A stretch of DNA of 64,000 nt from Lonicera japonica (taxonomy: Eukaryota > Streptophyta > Magnoliopsida > Dipsacales > Caprifoliaceae): NCBI GenBank assembly GCA_021464415.1, contig CM038470.1, positions 24,453,601 to 24,517,600 on the forward strand, written 5' to 3'. The notes under the pieces were generated by a model, which made no database searches, was not told the DNA's origin, and saw only the letters and a list, made by a program, of their open reading frames with translations. Below, piece by piece: positions 9,076 through 63,719 of this stretch (position 1 is the first letter of the stretch; each line of letters opens with the position of its first letter). A program made the translations under genes and the position numbers.

Positions 9076-9377
9076 TCAACACTAGAATGATGCCATATCT
9101 TTGATTTAGAGTTCGTAAAAAAAAAGAGTTAAGATCAGATTATTTTTTTTCAAATCCCGCTGAGCTGTCGAAATTAGTCGATTTCTATAACAAAACGACC
9201 TTTGTCCATTTTGATTTTTCACTTAATTATATTAACTGTCTTCCGAACAACATATCCAAAAATCAGCCCAATCCAACTGTTCAATCGAAAGTTATATATG
9301 TTTTATGATTGCACCTGTTGAAAAAAAATATATGAGGAGAACGACACTTCTCTCAGCTATACAATTGGAGAGTCGGG

Positions 9378-12920: not shown

Positions 12921-15182
12921 ATGGCTTCCCTTTTCCTTCTCACTCTCACTGTCACTTGCATGTTTAGCCTTTACCCCTCTATAGCTCTGGACCCAAAAAT
13001 TTCATTGCCAAGGAGTGAAAATGAAGACCTTGAATTACATTCATCAGGTATGAGTGTCACAAACAATACCCATCTGCAAAATTACATTGTCCATGTAGAT
13101 TTGCCATATGGTAAAGCCGATTCCCTTCCGTTCCAAGAGCTAGAAAGCTTGTATTACTCGTTTTTGCCGTCAACAATTGCCCACGCCCAACGCAGAACAC
13201 GCATGGTTCATTGCTACCGTCATGTATTGTCGGGCTTTGCAGCAAGATTGACACCGGAGGAAGTCGAATCCATGGCAAAGAAAGACGGGTTTGTGTCTGC
13301 AGCACCCGAGAAAGTTTATTCCTTACACAGCAGTCGTAGCCCTACCTTCTTAGGATTGCAACAAAATACAGGGTTATGGGGGGACTCGAATCAAGGGAGG
13401 GGAATGATTATTGGAGTCCTGGACACGGGAATTGCTCTAAACCACCCTTCGTTTAGCGACAATGGAGTTCCACCACCGCCAGCAAGATGGAGAGGGAGGT
13501 GTGATCTCCCCAGCACAACCTGCAATAATAAATTGATTGGAGCGAGGACCTTTTTTGCTGGTGATACACCGGAGGACACAAACGGGCACGGGAGCCACGT
13601 AGCAGGCATAGCAGCAGGTAACTTTGTGAGTGGGGCCAATGTATTTGGTCAAGCAACTGGTACAGCTAGTGGCATTGCACCTCTTGCTCACTTGGCTATC
13701 TACAAAGTGTGTTCCACAACAGCATGTCCTGGAGCAGCAATATTGGCAGGAATGGACGCCGCAATTGGTGACGGCGTTGATTTGGTTTCTATGTCCATAG
13801 GTGCTGGTTCAACCCCTTTCTATAATAGCGAACTTGCTATTGGCACATTTTCGGCTATTCAAAGAGGGATTTTCGTAAGTTGTTCCGCTGGAAATAGGGG
13901 GCCAACTACAGCTTCATTATCAAATGAATATCCGTGGGCTCTCACTGTTGGTGCTAGCACTATTGATAGAAATATAAGGGCAACAGCGGTGCTTGGAAAT
14001 GGGGTTGAACTCAATGGGGAGTCACTTTCACAGCCTAATAATTTTCCTTCAACATTGTTGCCTCTTGTCTACCTCGGTAGGACTGGAAATCAACAAGCTG
14101 CATGGTGCTTCGCAAACGCATTCAACAATGTTAATGTCAGAGGAATGGTGGTATTGTGCGATGATGGCGGTAACATTGGAAGAGTAGCTAAAGGGCAAAA
14201 TGTGAGGAATGCTGGTGGCGCTGCCATGATTCTCGTGAATGAAGAAATCCACGGCGACAGTATTCCTGCAGAAGCGCACGTTCTCCCAGCAACACTTGTA
14301 AGTTACAGAGATGGGACAACAATCAAGACCTATATAAACACAACTCCATTACCACAAGCAACTATTTCATTCAGAGGAACTATATTAGGGGTAAATGGTA
14401 CACCAGAGGTCACTTCGTTCTCTTCAAGAGGTCCAAACCAAGCCAGCCCAGGCATTCTAAAACCAGACATTATTGGCCCTGGTAGAAACATTCTAGCTGC
14501 ATGGCCGTTTTCTGTTGATGGCACCACCACAGGAGCAACATTTAACATTATTTCAGGCACATCAATGGCTTGCCCTCATTTAAGTGGAACTGCGGCCCTT
14601 CTGAAAACCATGCACCCAAGTTGGTCTCCAGCGGCCATTAAGTCAGCTATTATGACTACCTCCACCTTGTCCAACAACGATGGCAATGCTATTAAGGCAA
14701 ACTATTATGAGCTTGGAGCTGGCCAAGTCATCCCATCAATGGCGAACGATCCAGGGTTAATTTACGACATTCAACCAGATGATTACATTCGTTACTTGTG
14801 CGGATTAGGTTACACGAACCAACAAGTTAGCACTATCGCACGACGCTCAATAAGCTGTTCACCTGGATTCTCGATACCTGAAGCTCAGCTAAACTATCCT
14901 TCATTTACGATCAGGCTCACGTCTTTTCCTCAGTCATATACGAGAACGGTGACTAATGTTGGTGATGCCATTTCATCGTACACTGTGACAGTCACTATAC
15001 AACCACAAGTTAATGTAGTTGTCACTCCGAATAGGCTCGACTTTACCAGGGTCAACCAACAACTGACATATACCGTGACTTTTAGCCGAGCTGTGACCAC
15101 CCCAGCAATTTTGCAAGGATTTTTGACATGGGCTTCATCTAGGCATGCTGTTAGGAGCCAGATGTCTGTAACATTGGCTTGA
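12921..15182 (+). CDS. Secreted subtilisin-like serine protease (plant SBT1-type subtilase)
   Basis: A 753-residue intronless frame with the full plant subtilase layout. Residues 1-22 are a hydrophobic signal peptide ending SIA-L. An I9 inhibitor propeptide spans about 54-136 (YIVHVD to VYSLHSSRSP). The S8 catalytic domain follows. The catalytic residues are present: Asp168 (VLDTGI), His223 (NGHGSHVAG), oxyanion Asn325 (SAGNRGP) and Ser548 (GTSMACPH). A PA-type insertion lies at about 378-475 and an Fn3-like C-terminal domain at about 655-753 (TVTNVGDAISSYTV). N-X-T sites occur at 48, 473 and 492. The enzyme should be secreted and self-processed, cleaving proteins in the cell wall or apoplast. 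Length and lack of introns fit SBT1. Small departures from consensus are GHGSHV for GHGTHT, SAGNRGP for SAGNSGP and SMAC for SMSC. Substrate and paralogue identity cannot be read from the sequence. It is the only gene here that looks functional. Confidence 0.95.
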   Translation: MASLFLLTLTVTCMFSLYPSIALDPKISLPRSENEDLELHSSGMSVTNNTHLQNYIVHVDLPYGKADSLPFQELESLYYSFLPSTIAHAQRRTRMVHCYRHVLSGFAARLTPEEVESMAKKDGFVSAAPEKVYSLHSSRSPTFLGLQQNTGLWGDSNQGRGMIIGVLDTGIALNHPSFSDNGVPPPPARWRGRCDLPSTTCNNKLIGARTFFAGDTPEDTNGHGSHVAGIAAGNFVSGANVFGQATGTASGIAPLAHLAIYKVCSTTACPGAAILAGMDAAIGDGVDLVSMSIGAGSTPFYNSELAIGTFSAIQRGIFVSCSAGNRGPTTASLSNEYPWALTVGASTIDRNIRATAVLGNGVELNGESLSQPNNFPSTLLPLVYLGRTGNQQAAWCFANAFNNVNVRGMVVLCDDGGNIGRVAKGQNVRNAGGAAMILVNEEIHGDSIPAEAHVLPATLVSYRDGTTIKTYINTTPLPQATISFRGTILGVNGTPEVTSFSSRGPNQASPGILKPDIIGPGRNILAAWPFSVDGTTTGATFNIISGTSMACPHLSGTAALLKTMHPSWSPAAIKSAIMTTSTLSNNDGNAIKANYYELGAGQVIPSMANDPGLIYDIQPDDYIRYLCGLGYTNQQVSTIARRSISCSPGFSIPEAQLNYPSFTIRLTSFPQSYTRTVTNVGDAISSYTVTVTIQPQVNVVVTPNRLDFTRVNQQLTYTVTFSRAVTTPAILQGFLTWASSRHAVRSQMSVTLA

Positions 15183-17542: not shown

Positions 17543-17663
17543 TGTTAGATTTCGGAGTATCCAACCTAAAACCAATTGGCAATAAGTGGAGTAGCCCCTT
17601 AGATCTTATATATTGAATTATGATTATCCACTCTCCACTCTTCCACTACACCAACAAGGCTCT

Positions 17664-17990
17664 TGGGCGACGTAGTCAATAGAATACGTCGCCTAATAAT
17701 ATCCTAGGCGACGTAATAATGGTACGTCGCCTAATATAATCCTAAGCAACGTAGGTATATAATACGTCGCCCTATATAATATGAAGCGACATAGGTATCC
17801 ATTACGTCGCCTTAGATTATCTAAGGCGACATACGTAAATTCACACGTCACCCAAAAGCTGTTGACCACCAACACTTTTAAGTGGCGGTCAACAGGGGGT
17901 TTGACTGACTTTTAAGCGACATATAAACTATAAGTACGTCGCCTAATATTTCTCTTGGGCATCGTATATATAGTTTCTACGTCGCCTAAG
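17664..17990. repeat. CACTA left subterminal repeats
   Basis: At least a dozen copies of the 11-base motif TAGGCGACGTA or its complement alternate in orientation. In related En/Spm elements such motifs are binding sites for the TNPA-type protein and organise the transposition complex. Confidence 0.9.
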
Positions 17991-18017
17991 ATCCTGTCAT
18001 CTTTATATCAGAACCTC

Positions 18018-18790
18018 TCCTCCATTTTCGGGGTTGCTATGTTTTAGAGCTACTTTGGGCGATTTTCGCGATTTTGAAAGTGAAAATCAACATCATTTCC
18101 CTCATTAAAGGCTTGTTTGATCTTTAGGTAATCTATCTCTTATTAATATTAATTATTCATTAATTTTTGTGTTTATATAGATATTGTGTTTAGTGTAGAA
18201 AATTTGTAATTGGTGTTGAAGATATAGTATTGTTGTTAGTTGTTGCCCCTATTTGATGTCTAGGTTAGTACTACGTTGCCTAAGAACATGCCATTTTCGG
18301 TTTTAGAGTTAATTTGGGCAATTTTGGAGATTTTGAAGGTGAAAATCAACATCATTTCCCTCACTAAAGGCTTGTTTGATATTTAAGTACTCTATCTCTT
18401 ATTAATATTAATTATTTACTAATTTTTGTGTTTATATATATTGTGTTTAGTGTAGAAAATGTGTATTTGGTGTTGAACATATAGTATTATTGTTAATTTT
18501 TGCTCCTATTTGATCTCTACGTTCGTACTACGTCTCCTAAGAACATGCCATTTTCAGGATTGATGTGTTTTATAGTTAATTTTGGCGATTTTGAAGGTGA
18601 AAATCAACATCATTTCCCTCATTAAGAGCTTGTTTGAACTTTAGGTACTCTATCTATTACTAATATTAAAATTTTTACTATAAATAGATATCGTATTTAG
18701 TGTAGAAAATGTGTATTTGATATTGAAGATATAGAATTGTTATTAGTTGTTGCCCTTTTTTTATATATACGTTAGTATTATTCTTAGTTG
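18018..18790 (+). repeat. About 258-bp tandem triplication upstream of TNP2
   Basis: GTGAAAATCAACATCATTTC recurs at about 18080, 18339 and 18597, each followed by CCTCAYTAA..GCTTGTTTGA, CTATCT..TTAATATTA and a GTGTTTATATA-like stretch. The units are 258-259 bases long. Each carries a leader-like exon piece and possible splice donor (TTTAGGTA), so this is probably the triplicated 5' leader or promoter of the transposase gene. Confidence 0.8.
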
Positions 18791-18854
18791 TTGGAAATTT
18801 TTAAGTTTGTAATTATTTCTCATATGACAATGATCGAAAATGAATAAGAACTAG

Positions 18855-21800
18855 ATGAAATGCTCAAGAGGTTCAACGGAATTCATTGTGGGGCTAATGG
18901 AGTTCTTAGAGTATGTACGAGAAAATGGCAACAGTTCGACTGGATTGTATCCATGTCCCTGTAAAAAATGTTTCAACATGGGCCAACAGGTGACATTAGA
19001 TGAAATATACATCCACTTGACCAATGCGGGTATAATAGAGTCATATACAGTATGGAACCTACACGGGGAAATTCTAGAGACACCTTCGCAATGGCAAGAA
19101 GAACAGAACCAGGCGTTTTCGAGTAACCCGACCATGGACTTCGTACAAGATGCTTTTCCTTTTCGTGAATCGTATGATCACGCTGGCGTTGAAAATGCAT
19201 TTCATGCCGACCCTGTCGCCAAAGAAAATTCGATAGCATATCAACGTCTCTTAGACGAAGCAGTGACTCCACTGTACGAAGGTAGTCAAGTCACAGCGCT
19301 AGCTTTAATGCTTAGATCGCTGCAGCTAAAATAGAGTTGCAATATGACAGACACATCCTTCAACAAGTGGGCTGCTGAAATTAATTACATGTTGCCTGAA
19401 GGGAACAAGTACCCCGACTCATACAAAGTTATAAAAAAGGCCTTAAAGAAGATCGGCATGGGTTACGAGGTCATCCACGGGCGTTACTACGGCTGCTACT
19501 TGTTTTATATGGAAGGGTAAAGACCTAGATCAATGTCCCATTTGCAGTGAGTCAAGATGGGAAGAAGAATATACAGGCAATGGCAAACGGATTGCCCGGA
19601 AGACGGTTCGGTACTTCCCATTGGCACCGAGGTTGTAGCGTTTGTATAGTTGCAAACATATTGCAAAGGAAATGCGGTGGCATAGGGAAAGAAGAGAAGA
19701 TACTGAATATCTTAAACACCCAGCGGATGGAGAAGAATGGAAGGATTTTGACAGTTGACGTATATATTTAGAGTTCGTACGCATACAATTTACTAAACTG
19801 TTAGTTTAATTATTTTCATATTAAGGAATTTGTCTCGTCATGTTACAGGTGGCAACCGCAATTTGCCGCCGACATTAGAAACGTACGTCTTGCTCTAGCA
19901 TCAAACGGGTTCAGTCCGTACTCTACTATAACGGTTTGTTAGAGTGATATACTAAAAGCCATAATTTTCTTGTTGGTTTGGATATGTTACAAACTTGGTT
20001 TTGCTATTTTAATGAGAATCTGTATAGGCAATGGTTGCATTATATTAATTATTTAAATATTGTGCATGTGTGTCTTTTATTCCATAGAGTAGATGATTTG
20101 GTGTGTAGAGTATAGCTTACACACAGAAGATCTTATCATCGGTTCTTGTAGAATATAAGTTTAATGGTTCACAGTCTTAGATGGAATTGGACACCCATCG
20201 GTAGGATTTTAGCACAAGTTTTAGTAGTTTATCTTAACTACAGAAAATGGTATAGTTTTAACTCGTTGTGCTAGTACACTTTGTGTGTATTGAATAGGAC
20301 CAGTTTAGGTTAATTGTTTTTATACTGACTATATAAAACAATTTAAAATCCCATGGTTATTATGATTACTTATGCTCTTAATCTTGAAATAATTAATAGA
20401 CATATATATGTAGTGTTTGTTGTTTTGACTCAATATGAGTGAGATTCATTTATGGATCAATAATCTTCGTGAATTGGATGACGACACTATATGTATGATG
20501 AATATTAATTATTGATGGAATCCACGTCCCGGTATAGGGATTGATGATAGCCCCTTGAGAAGCTTATAAGTTTTGATCCTGTCAAACCCTGCAGGTGGAT
20601 TATGTTAATCCGACATGTCAAATAAGTTAAGTGGTAGGCTCAAGGATTAAGAAGTTATTTAAATATAATTGTCAGTAATTTAATTTAAATGACAATTATC
20701 TGTAATCTTAACGTGGGGAGAATAATAAGGAGCTCAAATTATAATTTTAAGATAAGGACGGGAGTGAAATTATAATTCTTTAGTGGTGTGAATTATAATT
20801 TATGGAAGGAACTAATTCATAATGGAATTAGGATTCCAACTTTCCATAGGAAGCCCAAACACTTATTTTTCCTTAAGGTCCCTATCGTAGCCTTATATAT
20901 ACACCGGCCTAATCTCTTCTTATAATAACAATAATTCTCATGAGTTAGGATTTGTTCTATTAAGAGAAGAGAAAATCTTGGTGATACCGTAGCCCACACT
21001 CGGTGCAAGATTTGATGGCGGAAGGAATACGATAGAAGATCTTTAGGTTTTTCGTCACAGCAGTCGTAAATCAATCGTAACTTTTGATCCCACCGTTGGA
21101 TCGGACTGATTTTTGGATATGTGGTTCGGAACACAAAGTTACTTTTATGACGCAAAAAATCAAGACGATCAGAAGTCGTTTCGGTTGCGAAAAAAATTAA
21201 TTTTCGCAGCCTAGCAAGAATTAAAAAAATCTGACCAAATCGCAATCTAATGCTTTCAAACCCTAGTCTCCTCATATGGATCCTCTACATGATCCACAAA
21301 GGTGAAATCCCTTTATTCTTATAGGGTTTTAGCATAAGTTTTTTTTTTTCAATCTATACGCAATATCAAACGATCCTGTATTTATGTCTCCATCAGGTTC
21401 CCTACAGCTGCTGGCCTGTTATTGCGATGCCTTATAATTTGCCGCCTTCGTTATGTATAAAGAAGGAGTTTAACATTCTAGTCTTACTAATATCCGGCCC
21501 AAGAATCCGGGAAAGACTCTGAATGTGTTTATGAGACCACTATTTGATGAACTTAAGATGCTGTGGGAGACGGGGGTTTCAACTTGGAATCGATACGGTG
21601 AAGTGGCATTCAACATGAGGGCAGCCGTTATATGGACCATCAGCGACTTTCCAGGACTAGGAATGTTGGGAGGTATTCAGACAAAAGGATACAAGGCATG
21701 TCTCATATGTTTGGACGATTTTGTTGCGGTTCATAATAATTGAAGGATGTCATACCAGGGCGTGCGTAGATGGCTATCCGAAGATCACCCTTATCGGAGG

Positions 21801-21890
21801 CAATCAGAAAGGTTTAATGGGGAGCCAGAGCTCAAACCCGCCCCACAAAGAAAGTCTGCACATCAGGTCTTGAAGCTACCAACAGTTTTC
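18855..21890 (+). pseudogene. TNP2-type CACTA transposase (broken, truncated)
   Basis: The N-terminus matches the transposase-associated domain (FLEYVRENG, LYPCPCKKC, DEIYIHLTNAGIIESYTVW; codons 1-75). The TNP2 core then follows: DTSFNKWAAEINYMLPEGN (about 19350), a DQCPICSESRW-like stretch, MRWHREREED, WQPQFAADIRNVRLALAS (about 19850-19905). After a nested solo LTR come SCWPVIAMPYNLPP, a GKTLNVFMRPLFDELKMLW stretch, FNMRAAVIWTISDFPG, and GIQTKGYKACLICLDD (21405-21715). Stops occur at several places, and the gene ends near 21890, so the usual downstream DUF4218 and DUF4216 regions are missing. The protein would be the catalytic transposase in the nucleus. The call is secure; the gene is certainly non-functional. 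Confidence 0.9.
19937..21395 (+). mobile_element. Copia-type solo LTR inside TNP2
   Basis: The insert begins TGTTAGAGTGATATACTAAA and ends TCTCCATCA. GGTT is present on both sides (19933-19936 and 21396-21399). Removing it with one GGTT restores the TNP2 reading frame. It is 1.46 kb, has no coding domains, and contains a TATA-like TTATATATACAC at about 20892-20903 followed by a leader region, as expected of a plus-oriented LTR. The strict 5-bp duplication is imperfect (CGGTT against GGTTC). Confidence 0.85.
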
Positions 21891-21926
21891 CTTACCCTCA
21901 GAATTCTTTTATTGCGTTATGATAAT

Positions 21927-22326
21927 CCGCATCATGTTTATTGCATTATAATAATCTGCTACTATGTATTGAGTTGTACTAATAATATTTGCGAAATCAT
22001 CCTATCAATGGCCGAGTCGCTCTTAAAATCTATTAGATCACTCATTGAAGATGACTTCAGAATGAAATTTGTGGCGCACAATTTCGACAAGCTTTAGGTG
22101 ATTCTCCAGCCGCAACTCCACCAACTCGTTGTAGGAGGACCTTAAGTCGTGGAGCAGCAGGGGGGAAACATCTTGAATACTCGTTGGAACATTCAGCCGG
22201 AGTTCCTCGGGGATAAAAAAATCTTCCAAACCAACACTAAAACCTTCAGAATAAGCTTTTCTCTCCATAAGCATCGGTTGTACAGAATTGAAGAAGCTCA
22301 GAACCTCATTGATAGTATGGCACACA
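21927..22326 (-). pseudogene. Captured NRPE1-like fragment, copy 1 (Pol V largest subunit)
   Basis: On the minus strand this encodes a stretch that I recognise from NRPE1, the largest subunit of the plant RNA polymerase V used in RNA-directed DNA methylation. It contains VLSFFNSVQPMLMERK, EGFSVGLEDFFIP, SIQDVSPLLL, LRSSYNELVELRLENHL, and, after a one-base frame change, SDLIDFKSDSAIDR. These match the order of the funnel-region segment of NRPE1 (GFSVGLEDF, then YNELVELQLENHL, then SESAINK). The fragment is antisense to the transposase genes. It is one of two 417-base tandem units. It lacks the catalytic Asp triad, so it cannot encode a polymerase. A related NRPD1 origin is possible but fits less well. 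Confidence 0.75.
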
Positions 22327-22343
22327 AAGCGAATCTGCTGCAT

Positions 22344-22743
22344 CCGTATCCTGTTTATTGCGTTGTAATAATCTGCTGCTGCGTATCGGGTTATAATAAT
22401 AATATTTGCGAACACATCCTATTAATGACCGAGTCGCTCTTAGAATCTATTAGATCACTCATTGAAGATGACTTCAGAATGAAATTTGTGGCATGCAATT
22501 CCGACAAGCTTTAGGTGATTCTCTAGCAGCAACTCCACTAACTCGTTATAAGAGGACCATAAGTTATGCAGCAGCAGGGGGAAACATCTTGAATACTCGT
22601 CTGAACATTCAGCCGGAGTTCCTTGGGGATAAAAAAATCTTCCAAACCAACATTAAAACCTTCAAAATAATATTTTCTCTCTATAAGCATCGGTTGTACA
22701 AAATTGAAGAAGCTCAGAACCTCATTGATAATACGGCACACAA
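22344..22743 (-). pseudogene. Captured NRPE1-like fragment, copy 2
   Basis: This is the second unit of the tandem pair, roughly nine-tenths identical to copy 1 by eye. It begins INEVLSFFNFVQPMLIERK and includes GFNVGLEDFFIP. A G-run that is one base shorter than in copy 1 (near 22576-22580) shifts the frame after SIQDVSP. It is directly followed by AT-rich DNA and, from 22790, CACTA subterminal repeats. It is also antisense to the transposase genes. Confidence 0.75.
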
Positions 22744-22789
22744 AAATTATTAAAATTAAATTACTATTAAAATAAAAAATTATTAAAAA

Positions 22790-23045
22790 CTCTTAGGCGA
22801 CGTAGTTTTTATTTGTACGTCGCCTAAGAGTCACTTAAGCGACTTAGTTTTTTAAACCACGTCGCCTAGGTTACTCTTAGGCGACGTACAAATAAATACG
22901 TCGCCCAAAAGATTTCCCCCCTTTAAATTTCCCGAAAATTTAAAATATTCTGAAAATTTGAAATTCACTTGAGCGACGTATATAATTAAATTACGTTGCT
23001 TAGGTGATGTCATAGGCAACGTACTTAAATACTTACGTCGCCAAG
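22790..23045. repeat. Internal block of CACTA subterminal repeats
   Basis: About ten more alternating TAGGCGACGTA / TACGTCGCC motifs occur in the middle of the element. The left border, AAACTCTTAGGCGACGTAG, resembles the true left end (AAGGCTCTTGGGCGACGTAG) without its first bases. This suggests the truncated left end of a second, related CACTA element fused to or nested in the first. Confidence 0.8.
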
Positions 23046-25140
23046 TGGATAGGATAAATTAAACCTTTCACCCCTATTTCATTTTTTCGCGAAACAATCT
23101 CCTTCTCCCTCTATCTCTCAGTTCTTCCTCCTCCCTCATTTCCGACCACCACCACCTCGAAACCCTAGCCCCCATTTCCGACCATCACCAACTCAAAACC
23201 CTAGCCCCCATTTCTGATCACCACCTCCCTCGCTCACCACCACCACCGCCCTCGCTCACCACCGCCACCGACGCTCACCACCACCATTGTCCACGTAAGA
23301 TTTATTCCCATTCGCCCTTCTTAAGTCTCAATCCCATTGCCGTTTTTTAGTTGATTGCTAGTTAATTAATATTACTTCTTAAATAGTTAATTATGGAGAT
23401 CAAAATGGGATAATAAAATGATTTTTACTACTATTTGTGACATTGTATGAATCAAATTAAAGTATCATAGGCCTAAAAAATTTGTTTCTTTAAATTCTAC
23501 TTAATTTTACCTTATCAATTATTTTTAGTGTTTGCTTTTGCTGATGTGGGCTATATAGCTTCATCACATCAAGCATTGCGTTAAATTAATGATGAAAGTA
23601 ATTGTTGCGGTTCCTTGTTCTTTAATTCGATCTGAGAGTCATGTTAATCTTCACTTGAGTGGCGTCCAAATTTATTAATTTTCTCACTTCATTGGCTAAT
23701 GCATTAAATAAACGAGGACCGACAGTAATTACTCCATTATTAATGTAATACACTAACCAACGAGGTGTGAGCATCATGTTAACCTTCACATTTGGAGAGT
23801 CAATAGATATGGATCACGTGAGTCATGAATGAGAGTCAATAATTTTGGACTCACATAATTGATCAGCTGAGGGTAGACATAAGCTGCTATAAAGGTTGTA
23901 GTAGTTGAAGTAGTTGGTGATACTAAATAATAAGCTGAACTAGCTATGACCATTTGATATCTTACAAGAAATTTCTTAGTAAAAAGTTTGATTGTAAGGA
24001 ATTGTTTCATAATACTTTCGGATAGGGATTCTTTGCTTCAAGGAATTCGGGTGCATATAACTAGAGGACATGTGCAAAACAAGAATAAAGTTTAGGATTG
24101 TGGTTGCTAATCTTTACCAATGCAACTTGTGTGTATAAAAAGATGGTTTAGGATTTTCGAATATGTTGATTCTGTATAGAGAATAACAGCCACGAATGCC
24201 AATAACTTGTTGAGTAATAAGAAAACCAAAAATATTGGGACGAGGGAGAAAACTCAATGTTTATTTATCATTAGCTTCAAAGTAACTCGTTCAGTGCATC
24301 TTGTCATTCCTGTTCTAGAATGGTATTATAAGGCTAAAGCTGTCACCCAAAAATTTATCAAACTTGCACAAAAGCCCTATTATAAGATTGAACTTGTCAG
24401 ATGTGTGCTAGGTTTGCTTCATCTTTGAGGGTGTGTTTAATTAAATTCCCCAAATATGATATTTTCCATCTTCAGGGTGCTTATTTGTATAGTTTCCCAC
24501 GGAATCAATTTTCATGGTACAACTTAGTTTAGCTCAATTTTCTCATTCTACTAAGTTCGAAAACCGGATCCTGCCTATGTTTTTTGTTTACTATGGAAAA
24601 GTTTTCCATGCAAATAATTTCCTGGGATTCGATTATTTTCCATATGGACTGATAAAACAATTCTTATAGCTAGTGATTGGATGACATTTTCCAGGAGTAG
24701 GTAGTCAAAAAAATGAGGGACTGAAAAACCATCTCATGAAGGAAACAATTTTCTGGGGATAAAAAATTTCACACTTGGATAAATGTCTATAAACATATTA
24801 TAACGTTTACATGCATTTGATTTGCCTGGTCATTTTGCCTCATTAACCACATCTAAGTTTCAACTGCTGAGTTATTTAAACACAATAAACACAAATGTTA
24901 AAACTCTACATATGTTGACCCTGAAATCAAGAAGAAAATTTGTCTGAAATATTTCACAGCTTCTACACTTAACATCAATGCATTCAAATACTCCCATTTG
25001 AAGCCTCAATTAGTGTTTCCGCTACACTTTTTGGTACACGCAATTAGTACCTATGCCCTTTTTCCTGCATTAACACAAGTAGATATATTAGGACCAAAAA
25101 TATTCCTACTTTTATTCATTAAATTGTATTCAATAATCTC
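23046..25140. other. Leader-like and non-coding DNA inside the CACTA
   Basis: 23090-23296 is a C/T-rich leader with CCACCACC-type repeats and AACCCTAGCCCCCATTTC twice, ending at a plausible splice donor (CCACGTAAGA at about 23293). It could be the promoter and first exon for the downstream TNPA-type gene, or a captured gene leader. I see no coding sequence to about 25140. The end next to the IQD fragment is probably its 3' flank. Confidence 0.45.
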
Positions 25141-25712
25141 TTAACCTACTTTACTCACATCAAATGCAACGAGTGATCTGCAGTAGTTGGTATTTGTCAG
25201 CATCGTACTGTTAGATCCGCATTCACTATCCATAAGTGGAACCACCGACCTATCAAGCTTGATGGACCACAGATACTGATAATTCTGAGCCGTTGAACCA
25301 ACATGTGAAGATGACCGCTACATGTGCACCGCCCTTGGCACATTTCTTCCCTCTATCGACGGTCTACATTTGCTAGATTGCCTCTCAAATGTCTCCACGG
25401 GCGTTGCTTGTGTGCACTGTGTGATCTAACTTTTGCCCTTGAAGATTCTATATTGGCCATGTAGTTTGGGAAAAAGGGGTACTCATAGGACATGGACTCA
25501 GCATATTCTGGCCGAGGATTATCAAAAGGGATTCTTGATGGGTCGGGTTTGGATATGGCAGAGTAGTATTGAGGGCTGCTTTGAGCTGTGCCAAATGTGT
25601 ATTCCTCGAAATGGCCACTAGAGGGTTGGGACTGATGGTACTGGTGAGATCTGTTGAGGCTCTTGTTTTGAGCAAGAACGATAAGTGTAGAATATGTGCT
25701 CTGTTTGTGCAT
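25141..25712 (-). pseudogene. Captured IQD-family gene fragment (C-terminal exon)
   Basis: On the minus strand the frame reads SGHFEEYTFGTAQSSPQYYS, SKPDPSRIPF, then PNYMANIESSRAKVRS and HSAHKQRP. These are the DUF4005 hallmarks of IQ67-domain (IQD) proteins, plant calmodulin-binding microtubule scaffolds. After a frame change it continues RPSIEGRNVPRAVHM, RSSSHVGSTAQNYQYLW, SIKLDRS, DSECGSNSTMLTNTNYCRS to a stop near 25141. This corresponds to the last part of an IQD14-like protein. The IQ67 calmodulin-binding region is absent. The fragment is antisense to the CACTA genes and has frameshifts, so it is a transduplicated piece rather than a gene. Confidence 0.8.
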
Positions 25713-25963
25713 GGTTTGAGTAGCTAGTCCTGCTTTTTATACTTCCCTTTGATTCGCAGAGATCCATTTCCACTATCTTGATGTTCTTAGTATAACCATT
25801 TCAACCATTAAGTGTTTATTATTTTTATTTAAAAAATTAGGTAGGCACAAGAAACAAGGAGATCGAGAAACTAGAGAGAGAGATAGAGGGGAAATCTAAC
25901 TACTCTGTCTATTGAAGAACGTTTTTAGTATAACCAAAATCTAGTGTTCTTATGTTTCTTTCA

Positions 25964-26010
25964 ACTTCAATTTCAATTTCAATTTCAATTCAATTCAATT
26001 CAATTCAATT
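25964..26010. repeat. CAATT/TTTCAA microsatellite
   Basis: Runs of TTTCAA followed by TTCAA units lie upstream of the first TNPA-type exon; a similar short run occurs at about 26065-26120. Confidence 0.9.
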
Positions 26011-26159
26011 AGGGCAAAGTTGAAATTGATCTTGAAGTTTACCGTTCTTATTTTTCTTTCAATTTTGATTCAATTCAATTTCAATGTCAGTTCAATTCAA
26101 TTCAATTTTAATTCAAGTCAATTATAGTATTCTTATGTTTCTTTCAAATATATGTCAGG

Positions 26160-27768
26160 ATTCCTCCGAAAGATTCAGCCACAAGGAAGAAATCTCGTGT
26201 AGAGCTGCGTGAGGAGTTTCATCTTCCCTTGCAGCAGCCCTCGCAGGCGCCTCAGGCGCCTCGCAGCAGGCGGCCCAGGCCGACAGACCACCGGTCTCAA
26301 CGCAGGAGTTGCCGGTCCTGCCGCTTGTTCTGCCCCTCCCTTCCGCACCACCCACACGCTGCATTTGCTGCACTTTTGCTACTACTCACGTGCCGACTGA
26401 CTCAGGTAAAGTTCTTAAAGTCGTAGTCGGGAAGAAAACGGCGGCGATCACGAAAGAGAATGGCAGGACCCCGATGACCTATAAGGATTTGATTAGGGGG
26501 CCCCTTCTCAGTTCGCTCCCGATTCGTGACGGACCTCTAGGCTTATATAAAAGACCGATGTCCAATGCCCCATCCGACGTGGCATGACCTTCCGATGACG
26601 GAGCGGACGAGGTTGCTGGATTTTTTATCGGTAAGTTTTGCATTTTTTTTTATTTTTTTATTGTTTGTTATTATTTCAAATTACTAATGTTTCTCTCTGC
26701 TATTTTTCTTTGCAGGTGAACTACGATATCGATCACCGGCATAGGGAGATCACTGGCTGGATAGACGAGAAGGCCGCCAACCGGTTCAGGCAATGAAAGT
26801 CTTCCTGTCACACGAACTGGCAGGAATTGGGAGATTTGCCCCTTCCTCTCGAGTTCGCCCATCATCCTGCGGAGTGGCAGTGGTTGTGCAACCACTTTAG
26901 GGATCCCGAATTTCAGGTAAAATTAATTAATTTGTCTAACTTAATTTAAATACAATTGAATATTCTAACGGTTTGTATCTTATGTATCTTGCAGAGGCGG
27001 AGCGAGCAAATGAAGGCGGTCTGGGCCTCGAAAAATAAGAGGCCCCATAGCGGAGGGGCCAAGCTTTTTGCAGCTCGGGCTGATGAGTACACGAAGAAAG
27101 GTGAGCAAGCTCCTCACGTGAAGACGTACATGGATATGTACAAGAAATTCGATCCCGAGGGCACGGTAAGTTTATTATTTATTAATTCATTACATTTATT
27201 GCTAGTTATTTGTAATAAGAAATTCGATCCTTATGCTTAATTATTTATAATAAGAAATTCATTAATTATATTTATTGCTATTTGCAGTCGCGGGTTCAGC
27301 AGGCGAGCGACAAGGCGGTTGCCTCATTGATGGCAAGTATGCCTCTGATGGAGGATACATCGGATGGCTGCTCGCCGGCCTTAGTCACAGCCCCGCCGAG
27401 ACTCTATGTTAATGTAGAGATCGGGCTTATAGAGAGGGTGGTCGGTCCTTCGAGAGGGACCAGGGTTCCCGGCTTAGGCAGCGGCGTCGCCAAGCAGTCG
27501 AGGACGAGAGGACCATCACAGCCGGAGCCCCGAAACGCCGCGATTGAGGAGGAGTTCGCCAGACTTAGGGCAACTCAAAAGGAACTAGAGGAGCATCTTC
27601 AACAGGAAAGACGGGATCAGCAGGAGCGCGAAAGGCAACTCAAGAAGGAGCGGCAGGATCGAGATAGGGAGCGGCTGGAGTTCGAAGTGAGGGTACAGGC
27701 CTAGCTTGCAAAAATGGCGAGGCAGATGAATATGAGGGCTCCACCATTCGATGGCTCCAACTCAGGAT
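26160..27768 (+). pseudogene. TNPA-type CACTA protein (PF03004-like), four exons, broken
   Basis: Exons with good splice signals: about 26160-26630 (donor GTAAGT), 26716-26916, 26995-27165 and 27288-27768. The conserved core is DYI-like WQWLCNHFRDPEFQ joined to RRSEQMKAVWASKNKRPHSG, GAKLFAARADEYTKKG and the MDMYKKFDPEGT end, which is the plant Ptta/En/Spm transposase signature. The last exon encodes a long charged coiled coil (EEEFARLRATQKELEEHLQQ and onward). In En/Spm the matching protein binds the subterminal motifs. A TGA replaces Trp near 26798, a frame change lies in exon 1, and a TAG at 27702 truncates the tail. The splice phases still agree across exons 2-4. Confidence 0.85.
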
Positions 27769-28057
27769 AGTTTTAGGTTTATTTTCTTATTGATCAATTT
27801 TATATGATTATAAAGTTTTTAAAATAGTTTTATAGGACATTGCTATAATCTATAAACGTTTTGAACATTTAATTGAATGCTTACACATTTGAATGGTTGA
27901 ATGCTTAGATATTTGAATAATTAAATGTTTTGATATTTGAACGATTGGGCAGGATGTTTGAATGAATGAAATTGGTTTGTAATGTAGGTTATTTGCATAG
28001 AAGTGCACGTGTGGGATGCACATAGAAACAGACAATTTCTATTATTATTTTAATTCA

Positions 28058-28560
28058 CTTAGGCGACGTAAGTAAAATAAGTACGTTGCCCAAAGTCCAG
28101 TCAAAGTCAACTCTGCTCTGACCTAGGCGACATAAGTACAAGAATTACGTCACATAAGTAATAAACCTATGCGTCATAGATATTTAAATACGTCGCCTAA
28201 GATCAGTGCAGAGTTGACTTTGACTGGAATTTAGGTGACGTTAAATATCTACGTCGCCTAGGTTTATTCCTTAGGTGACGTTGTTAAATATCTACATCGC
28301 CTAGGTTTATTCCTTAGGCGACGTAATTATTATACTTATGTCGCCTAATGTCCAGTCAAAGTCAACTTTTCTCTGACCATATAGGCGACGTACGTATTTT
28401 TTGCGTCGCCTTGGAATTTTCTTAGGCAGTGTAATTATTTGTTTACATCGCCTATTACCCTGGGCGACATAGCTTAGGAGACGTATCTTACGTCACGTAA
28501 GATACAAGCGACGTATATGTATACTTGGGCGACATACAATCTATGTCGCCTAAGTGACCT
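28058..28560. repeat. CACTA right subterminal repeats
   Basis: About twenty alternating TAGGCGACGTA / TACGTCGCCTA motifs. A 25-base block, CCAGTCAAAGTCAACTCTGC at about 28091, recurs inverted at about 28205-28230 and directly again at about 28351, so the end can fold into larger stems. Confidence 0.9.
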
Positions 28561-28600
28561 TTTGAGGTAATGTTTCGATGTGGGATTGATAGTCTCAACA

Positions 28601-50935: not shown

Positions 50936-51199
50936 GAGCGTATATGTGTATTCTGTCTGATCTCATAGTCTCTCTGCTTGTTTGCTTTTGCTATAATATA
51001 ATTTTGACTTGGTCTTCAATTTTGTTGCATCTTATGATTGAATTTTTGTTGGTTTCTAAACCAATGTTATTATGGTGTTGCCCCTCAAGACATGAAGTGC
51101 ATGTTACAACATGGGGTAAACGGCGCTTCGTGGATTGATATCCTGTACAGTTTCATGATTAATCTGTAAAGTAATATCAAAAATTGTCAGAAGGTTGAA

Positions 51200-51768
51200 A
51201 TAATGCCCCTAGAGCGCAAGTGTGCATCTTGGCCTATGGCAAATGACACTTGTGATTTAAACAGGCAATTTTTTTAAAAAAAATAATGCCCCTTAGGTAC
51301 AAGTGTTCGTCTTGGCCTATGGCAGATAACACTTGTGGCTAAAACAGCAAAAAAATTTTGAATAATGTCCCTTGGGCACAAGTGTTCATCTCGGCCTATG
51401 GCACATGATACTTGTGGCTAAAACAGCAAAAAAATTTTGAATAATATCCCTTGGGCACAATTGTTCATCTTGGCCTATGGCAGATGACACTTGTGGCTTA
51501 AACAACCAAAAATAATTTTTTAAATAATACCCCCTTGGGCACAAGTGTTCATCTCGGCCTATGGCAGATGACACTTGTGGCTAAAATAGCCAAAAAATTT
51601 TAATAATGCCCCTTGGGCACAAGTATTCATCTCGGCCTATAGTATATGACACTTGTGGCTAAAACAACCAAAAAATTTTGAATGATGCCCCTTGGGCACA
51701 AGGGTTCATCTCAGCCTATGGCAGATGACACTTATGGGTAAAACAGCCAAAAAGAATTTTTAAAATAG
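51200..51768. repeat. Seven-unit tandem array (about 78-85 bp) in the Tat 3' region
   Basis: Each unit reads AATGCCCCTTGGGCACAAGT, GTTCATCTCGGCCTATGGCA, GATGACACTTGTGGCTAAAA, then a C/A-rich and T-rich spacer. Units begin near 51203, 51283, 51361, 51440, 51524, 51602 and 51680. The core CCCCTTGGGCACAAG is partly palindromic. The region between integrase and 3' LTR of Tat elements is known to gain such arrays. Confidence 0.9.
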
Positions 51769-63168: not shown

Positions 63169-63719
63169 TTATATCATATTTCGATTAATTTGTGAGAGGC
63201 CATTATAAAAATATTGAATTAATCTCCAAGTTTCAAAACCATGATGTGGACATCTATGTAGTACATCTTTAAATCTTTCCCACGCTTCAAAGAATTTTTC
63301 CTCATCTTCTTGGCAAAAATCAGTTATCTTTCTCCTAAGTTCATTAGTTTTAGCCATAGGAAATAATTTTGCTAAAAATTTAGTAACTAGCCCATCCCAC
63401 GTTATGATAGATCTCGAGGGTAAAGAAATTAACCAATCTTTAACTTTATTTTTTAGGGAAAATGGGAATAAACACAACCTAATGGATTCATCAGAAAATT
63501 TTTGAAATTTAAAAGTAGCGCATATCTCTAAAAAGTCTTTTATATGCAGATAGGGATCTTTCATTTCTAAGCCATTAAAAGTAGAGAGCAATTGAATTAC
63601 TTGCGGTTTTAGTTCAAAGTGAACTACAGTAGTAGCCGATAAAACAATGCATAAAGGAGGATTAGTAGTATAGGGACAAAAAGTTCTTTTAAAGTCCTAT
63701 TTTCTTCACGTTCCGCCAT
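63169..63719 (-). pseudogene. Athila gag, N-terminal capsid part
   Basis: Starts MAEREENRTLKELFVP at 63719. After one frame change near 63680 it reads FELKPQVIQLLSTFNGLEMK, DPYLHIKDFLEICATFKFQK, LFPFSLKNKVKDWLISLPSR, and EEKFFEAWERFKDVLHRCPH, the retrotransposon gag domain. A stop near 63168 interrupts it. Confidence 0.85.

Follow-up and report, generated by a model that had tools for sequence, protein, structure and literature searches.

NRPE1, the largest subunit of RNA polymerase V (Pol V), is part of a transposon-silencing pathway. In rice, CACTA elements carry pre-miR820, for which OsDRM2 is the target and a possible source (PMC3459959). The family described here from Lonicera japonica resembles these elements in being a CACTA lineage that multiplied with a piece of a gene for RNA-directed DNA methylation. 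It resembles Tgm-Express (PMC1947982) and other CACTA elements (PMC8978399) in carrying host gene fragments, and it resembles Pack-CACTA and Pack-TYPE elements (PMC13317346, PMC8903248; Catoni 2019, via a review) in that chromosomal DNA lies between TIRs, the short Lonicera element L020 being a case of this kind. VANDAL elements with VANC are transposons acting against host silencing, a likeness that the Lonicera family would share if its insert were active. We arrive at transduplication as a highly probable account of the Lonicera family: a CACTA ancestor captured NRPE1 DNA in antisense orientation behind TNP2, and the piece was then multiplied, trimmed and left to decay.

Results

The window, that is, the whole stretch of 64,000 nt that was analysed, corresponds to C8:24453601-24517600 in a genome of 886,079,548 bases and 967 contigs. 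A first-pass annotation had described two tandem 417-base units in it, with NRPE1-like peptides encoded on the minus strand. The repeat was indeed found, with positions 21925-22341 and 22342-22744 forming a direct tandem repeat of a 417-nt unit at a spacing of 416-417, and the quoted peptides are present on the minus strand, SDLIDFKSDSAIDR being encoded in a second frame. One frame change is common to both units, and unit 2 differs from unit 1 by one extra frameshift, a single-C deletion. The units are 88% and 93% identical across two ungapped parts, with 52 substitutions over 430 aligned nt (K2P 0.133). In each, antisense NRPE1 accounts for about 330 nt and spacer from the transposon for about 79 nt; the NRPE1-derived part is confined to the two intervals listed in Table 1, and the remainder of each unit is spacer. 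The captured piece represents approximately aa 597-702 of the Pol V largest subunit and is frameshifted.

Several searches agree on this identity, which the first-pass annotation had proposed. A PDB sequence search (E up to 10) returned three matches with E values between 5e-6 and 2e-5, and in each case the matched chain was the largest subunit of Pol V. Eight full-length protein matches were obtained among 890 candidates, all with RNA-polymerase largest-subunit domains, two of them annotated as Pol V subunit 1 and not one as NRPD1; the best was a Lonicera macranthoides protein at 81%, and tblastn of the best protein from this species against the window gave E 1.9e-36, by which chance similarity of the units to NRPE1 is ruled out. 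The comparison with plant proteins suggested as a check thus led to the Pol V largest subunit. A protein tree of 38 rows, built from both units together with 36 NRPE1 proteins of plants picked out of 122, placed the units as sister to Lonicera NRPE1 with 100/98 support; their stem measured 0.22, that of the Lonicera gene 0.052. An identity as NRPD1 is unsupported by the PDB and full-length protein matches, the tree comprising NRPE1 only. The 126-aa ORF of the units was without a Pfam match, and a 24-mer of the unit scanned against viral contigs gave no match.

NRPE1 of the host is encoded on C7, and the exon with the captured stretch corresponds to L029 211-1977 (aa 278-866; 98.8% to P0002), the next exon beginning near L029 2373. 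Among the matches listed, the C7 locus alone continued to match the query after residue 159. Alignment of the units to this host gene, another check that had been suggested, bore out the assignment at 85% identity to the C7 exon.

The units lie inside a decayed CACTA element, the parts of which are collected in Table 1. Its TIRs are CACTACACC at 17644 and ...TAATG at 28572, the 3' end being one base off TAGTG; with 1000 3' positions tried and 28572 the best, the score of the TIR comparison was reached by 4 of 5000 shuffles over 20 nt and by 0 of 5000 over 36 nt. The flanks, TTC and TTT, are one mismatch from a 3-bp target duplication, and the sister loci L011 and L016 open with the same 5' end. 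Motifs of the GGCGACGT type, allowing up to one mismatch, number 46 in the window against 10 expected. Near the 5' end, 18041-18780 holds three tandem copies (79-84%) of a segment of about 250 nt that is also present in sister elements.

Table 1. Parts of the NRPE1-bearing CACTA element in the window (strand relative to the forward strand)
Feature	Position	Strand	Evidence or remark
Decayed CACTA element	17644..28572	+	5' end CACTACACCAACAAGG, 3' end ...CCTTTTGAGGTAATG
5' subterminal repeats, GGCGACGT type	17666..17986	.	motif count
Transposase-associated domain ORF (PF13963), TNP2 start	18855..19334	+	E 1.5e-15
TNP2 next part, broken frames	19341..19936	+	18772-19936 90% identical to L010
Solo-LTR-like insertion, 1,459 bp	19937..21395	.	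absent from sister copies
TNP2 further part (PF02992)	21396..21909	+	E 5.8e-37
NRPE1 fragment copy 1	21986..22310	-	85% DNA identity to host exon (L029 1167-1485), frameshifted
Element spacer inside tandem unit	22325..22403	+	81-90% to L009, L010, L012, L017, L018, L019, L025
NRPE1 fragment copy 2	22403..22727	-	85% to host exon; further frameshift
Internal block, second GGCGACGT repeat set (22796-23042) and CT-rich segment	22743..23394	+	right of NRPE1
DUF4005 C-terminal region, second host-gene fragment	25353..25736	-	PF13178 E 4.4e-8
TNPA-side region	26419..27760	+	kept among sister elements
3' subterminal repeats	28062..28550	.	motif search; 71% to L020 3' end

TNP2 of the window copy retains PF13963 and a broken PF02992, the PF02992 match from near 19850 reaching 24.1 bits, below the cut-off. 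The insertion that splits it has the ends TGTTAG...CCATCA (read by eye), and L010 is uninterrupted at this site, so that window positions 19936 and 21396 adjoin there; a stretch at 9145-9312 is related (71%) to the insertion. Compared with L010, the window copy has also lost about 2.4 kb, comprising the second half of TNP2 up to the NRPE1 piece; in L010 this interval holds DUF4218 and DUF4216, ahead of NRPE1. To the right of NRPE1, the internal block recurs, whole or in parts and at 73-95%, in L009, L010, L012, L014, L015, L017-L019 and L025, and likewise at 73-95% in L052 and L054-L057. Two adjacent elements trapping a host piece had been considered because the internal block has its repeats (22796-23042) and a TIR-like stretch starts nearby, at 22762; since sister elements hold the internal block right of NRPE1, the block is part of the CACTA family and the two-element reading was rejected. 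The TNPA-side region, which has no Pfam match, is 79-92% identical, mostly in parts, to L010, L011, L013, L016, L019, L023 and L025, and 89% to L053. The DUF4005 fragment, which we take to derive from an IQD-type gene, is frameshifted, with the frame change after KQRP, and none of the 20 long sister loci matches it over more than 70 nt. With CACTA-type TIRs, TNP2 transposase and subterminal repeats all found around the units, the CACTA (En/Spm) context named in the first-pass annotation holds, and so does the antisense call for the NRPE1 pieces, because TNP2 and the TNPA-side region lie on the plus strand and the NRPE1 pieces on the minus strand.

Elsewhere in the window, an open subtilase ORF (12921-15179, plus strand) is 92-94% identical over its full length to four Lonicera macranthoides proteins, three of which are of the same length and from one contig, while its best matches outside Lonicera are at most 61% among the 120 listed. 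A plant snoRNA R71 (RF00097, 71.4 bits) at 63236-63342 on the plus strand adjoins retrotransposon-like ORFs, and 51199-51767 is a tandem repeat with a 79/241-nt period.

A search of the genome with the unit, in which the best 40 of 234 candidates were scored, gave at least 45 matches. Two of these are the window units and one is the host exon; the rest comprise 38 further loci and four additional pieces that fall inside two of these loci. All 38 other loci were fetched, 20 of them at 9.9 kb and 18 at 1.6 kb. A second query, for which NRPE1 sequence lying downstream of the unit was used, yielded at least 91 matches (the best 91 of 230 candidates). With matches merged within 5 kb and the host gene set aside, both queries together point to at least 98 places (C1-C9, 74; small contigs, 24), a figure that includes matches down to 57% aa identity and is not a strict copy number; some of the small contigs look as if they duplicate copies on the chromosomes (L011 and L016 have their flanks in common, and L020 and L034 are nearly identical). 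The NRPE1-bearing set is larger than the first-pass annotation had described.

Sister copies with the same insert, for which the first-pass annotation had advised a search, do exist: in 17 of the 20 loci for which 9.9 kb was read, sequence of the window's element recurs beyond the NRPE1 piece itself. TNP2 sequence is common to the window and eight of the 20 (L010, L011, L013, L016-L019, L025), the 5' end without TNP2 is found in four (L020-L022, L024), and internal-block, spacer or TNPA-side sequence only in five (L009, L012, L014, L015, L023). The remaining three, L026-L028, showed no window-element sequence outside NRPE1 at the cut-off used; we assign them to CACTA elements because of TIR-like CACTACACCAG ends in L027 and L028 and the subterminal motif in all three. 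Subterminal repeats were also found in sister loci, and in the 1.6-kb set the motif occurs at least once in 13 of 18, with none in L036, L037, L038, L040 and L041. L019 and L010 have PF13963, PF02992, PF13960 (DUF4218) and PF13952 (DUF4216) all present, spread across more than one frame. Read by eye, L020 looks like a short element that is complete, its ends being CACTACACC...GGTAGTG and its flanks a CTA/CTA target duplication; an automated exact-TIR scan that demanded a match at 11 of 14 TIR bases found no pair of ends among the 20 loci. At L033 (C4:49371812-49390416), NRPE1 pieces and CACTA-type subterminal repeats recur in tandem about 10 times with a period of 2,030 bp, apparently as a satellite born from the transposon.

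NRPE1 is antisense to TNP2 in all eight long loci with TNP2 matches, and in the four elements measured (L010, L017, L018, L019), antisense NRPE1 begins about 95-115 bp past the TNP2 stop. For L017 and L018 the last base of the stop codon closing the TNP2 tail is at -217, for L019 at -198 (in a shifted frame) and for L010 at -446, and NRPE1 starts at -103 in L017, L018 and L019 and at -338 in L010, which holds an extra partial NRPE1 copy in tandem. With this arrangement, a transcript reading beyond TNP2 would be antisense to NRPE1. Such a transcript, running through TNP2 and TNPA, had been proposed for the window; the arrangement behind the TNP2 stop in these four better-preserved elements is in line with the antisense part of the proposal, but in the window copy the 1,459-bp insertion interrupts TNP2, of which the 3' half has moreover been lost, leaving TNP2-to-TNPA read-through unsupported there.

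The same place was occupied when the search started from the transposase. Among the best 40 of 448 candidates scored with a TNP2-piece query, three (the window, C357 and C3:184512) lie within 5 kb of a unit-query NRPE1 match. Six of the 37 remaining places, picked from the list of matches and not at random, were read over 3.5 kb each, and five of these TNP2 copies outside the NRPE1 list have antisense NRPE1 remnants of 44-264 nt close behind TNP2: 264 nt at 84% in L055, two pieces in L056, one of 119 nt (83%) and one of 51 nt (96%), 55 nt at 100% in L057, and 44 nt each in L052 (91%) and L054 (89%). The sixth, L053, is without the TNP2 3' end. Within this small, non-random sample, the remnants in five of six copies suggest that the NRPE1 piece is no oddity of a few copies; it looks ancestral to this TNP2 lineage.

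Breakpoints in the host gene recur, the 38 copies starting at host position 924/932 in 15 cases, 1092 in 11 and 1167/1169 in 12. L030-L032, mutually 96-97% identical over about 3.3 kb, match host 1009-2150 and thus extend about 175 nt past the exon end into the intron, from which capture at the DNA level follows. A retrocopy of spliced mRNA is thereby ruled out for these three; the remaining copies lie within one exon and are uninformative on this point. The dS from host to L030 is 0.178, and between the subfamilies compared about 0.13. In L030 and L032, 323 gene codons are matched, with 291-aa open frames and two to three stop codons in the host frame, and such pieces could be mis-annotated as Pol V genes.

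Exact matches to the host are widespread. All 24 sequences tested have perfect 21-mers to the NRPE1 exon, 51-257 per sequence, and jointly they cover 533 of the 1747 host-exon 21-mers; the window has 60, with a longest exact match of 45 nt. This DNA comparison supersedes a protein-only bound, according to which 75 of 232 21-nt windows of unit 1 are without a forced mismatch, the part from unit 2 being poorly aligned. Coding function of the insert is unsupported: differences by codon position (0.106/0.069/0.088 in 22 rows) are not concentrated at third positions, 22 of 25 rows have one or more stop codons in the host frame, and dN/dS is 0.39-0.86 from element to element (pairs computed) and 0.23-0.58 from host to copy. 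These dN/dS values, from a calculation without a mutation-bias model, are all below 1, which counts against a neutral reading. Between unit 1 and unit 2, no significant synonymous excess was found (7/20, p 0.14).

In a first clustering test, the total of perfect 21-mers was reached by 2 of 1000 shuffles (25 rows) and by 5 of 1000 in an 18-row subset, while the other two measures of that test showed nothing. Once columns beside indels and differences common to host and elements had been taken out, the final test showed no clustering of conserved sites (p 0.99; 44 rows, 227 of 323 columns); we read the clustering of the first test as an effect of these two kinds of columns and reject a conserved target site. 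No inverted repeat of at least 25 nt was found over the units, and 241-nt stretches with the remnants of L052 and L057 gave z -0.56 and -0.15 versus shuffles, a miRNA-like fold being absent in both remnants folded.

Discussion

We propose that an ancestral Lonicera CACTA element would have captured, as DNA, part of the large NRPE1 exon together with the start of the next intron, and that this stretch would have come to lie antisense between the TNP2 end and the internal repeat block. Elements with the piece would then have multiplied, subfamilies cutting it to differing nested extents and short non-autonomous copies retaining it; in the window copy, the trimmed piece and about 79 nt of spacer would have been duplicated in tandem while the element decayed. 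The identity of the piece, its orientation and place after TNP2, its multiplication, the intron sequence in three copies and the recurrent breakpoints are directly seen. We infer a single capture event and an insert that is by now mostly neutral cargo; one capture followed by trimming is favoured because position, orientation and nested extents agree.

Some observations speak against this account, namely the three long loci L026-L028 that lack window-element sequence outside NRPE1 at the cut-off used, the five of 18 short loci without the subterminal motif, whose carrier is only presumed to be CACTA, the exact-TIR scan that paired no ends in 20 loci, and the few shuffles that reached the observed total in the first clustering test. 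The differing host breakpoints could stem from more than one capture, and the DNA tree, with the host gene as its sole outgroup, is silent on a single origin. If related CACTA elements had each captured this exon independently, that would fit the three breakpoint classes in 38 loci, the fourth in L030-L032 and the absence of flank similarity between L026-L028 and the window's element, but we consider this unlikely, given that orientation is equal wherever it could be judged, that extents are nested, that related internal repeats right of the piece link the classes pairwise and that even the short remnants share the place after TNP2. Nothing besides the rearrangement of the window copy would suggest an element inserted beside an older NRPE1 pseudogene, or a chance signal; this reading, to which we assign next to no probability, is already refuted by the dispersed copies, with the arrangement repeated at many separate loci, and faces the tblastn result for the window (E 1.9e-36).

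As to present function, the NRPE1 copies are most likely neutral cargo, a reading favoured by the lack of coding or local constraint, the host-frame stops and the unremarkable folds. Active counter-silencing is nevertheless possible: TNP2 read-through, or small RNAs from the antisense piece, might reduce the amount of Pol V in the host, and the family would then be silenced less, much as the CACTA-borne miR820 acts on OsDRM2 in rice. We hold this to be improbable. In its favour are the orientation antisense to TNP2 in 8/8 long loci and 5/5 remnants, the place directly behind TNP2, the many copies, the perfect 21-mers in every sequence tested, the 55-nt exact remnant of L057, and the rice precedent itself (PMC3459959). 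Shared ancestry alone would predict the exact matches, and the lack of coding constraint and, in the final test, of local constraint stands against it, as do the many copies that are trimmed or without large parts and the missing hairpin signal in two remnants. The stricter version, in which the family uses antisense NRPE1 in the TNP2 3' trailer to lower Pol V upon transposase transcription, seems to us more doubtful still; if true, expression of the element would be coupled to RNA-directed DNA methylation being lost locally or transiently, and the repeated trimming to short exact pieces would amount to evolution toward a small-RNA trigger. Least convincing among the functional readings is camouflage, in which small RNAs against the carried part of an important host gene would harm the host, so that the element is protected. 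This epigenetic conflict model is presented in PMC13317346 and PMC8978399 and might apply to NRPE1, itself in the silencing pathway, but there is no sign that the piece has been kept intact, and we regard it as very unlikely here.

If the neutral reading is right, the family still offers a natural series in which one host piece was captured, spread, trimmed and decayed in transposase-bearing CACTA elements. If the insert is active, it would add, after miR820/DRM2, a further transposon family with sequence against silencing, aimed at Pol V and widely spread. In practical terms, NRPE1 annotation and small-RNA mapping in Lonicera are confounded by the copies.

In the literature covered, which left most subscription journals and preprints outside the search and was seen in part, we found no NRPE1 insert in a CACTA element, a Pack-MULE or a transduplication. 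miR820, invoked in the first-pass annotation, is apt as a precedent, but the likeness does not extend to mechanism: in rice, miR820 comes from a foldback making a miRNA with demonstrated cleavage of OsDRM2 (PMC3459959), whereas the Lonicera piece is antisense NRPE1 known from sequence alone, the units forming no foldback precursor from a silencing gene, with no inverted repeat over them and no unusual fold in the two remnants. The VANCs of VANDAL elements are proteins that act on element DNA, in contrast to the antisense gene piece that is all the Lonicera elements have. Among elements with captured genes, the Chenopodium CACTA elements hold their fragments upstream of ORF1 (PMC8978399), while the Lonicera piece lies behind TNP2 and sits in TNP2-bearing and short elements alike. 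The latter feature also sets it apart from Pack-TYPE elements, described as non-autonomous in PMC13317346: a host gene piece between TIRs is present in both L020 and the window, transposase is absent from L020 but belongs to the TNP2-bearing lineage of the window, and the NRPE1 piece occurs in elements with TNP2 domains as well. The nearest precedents found are rice miR820 and CACTA gene capture.
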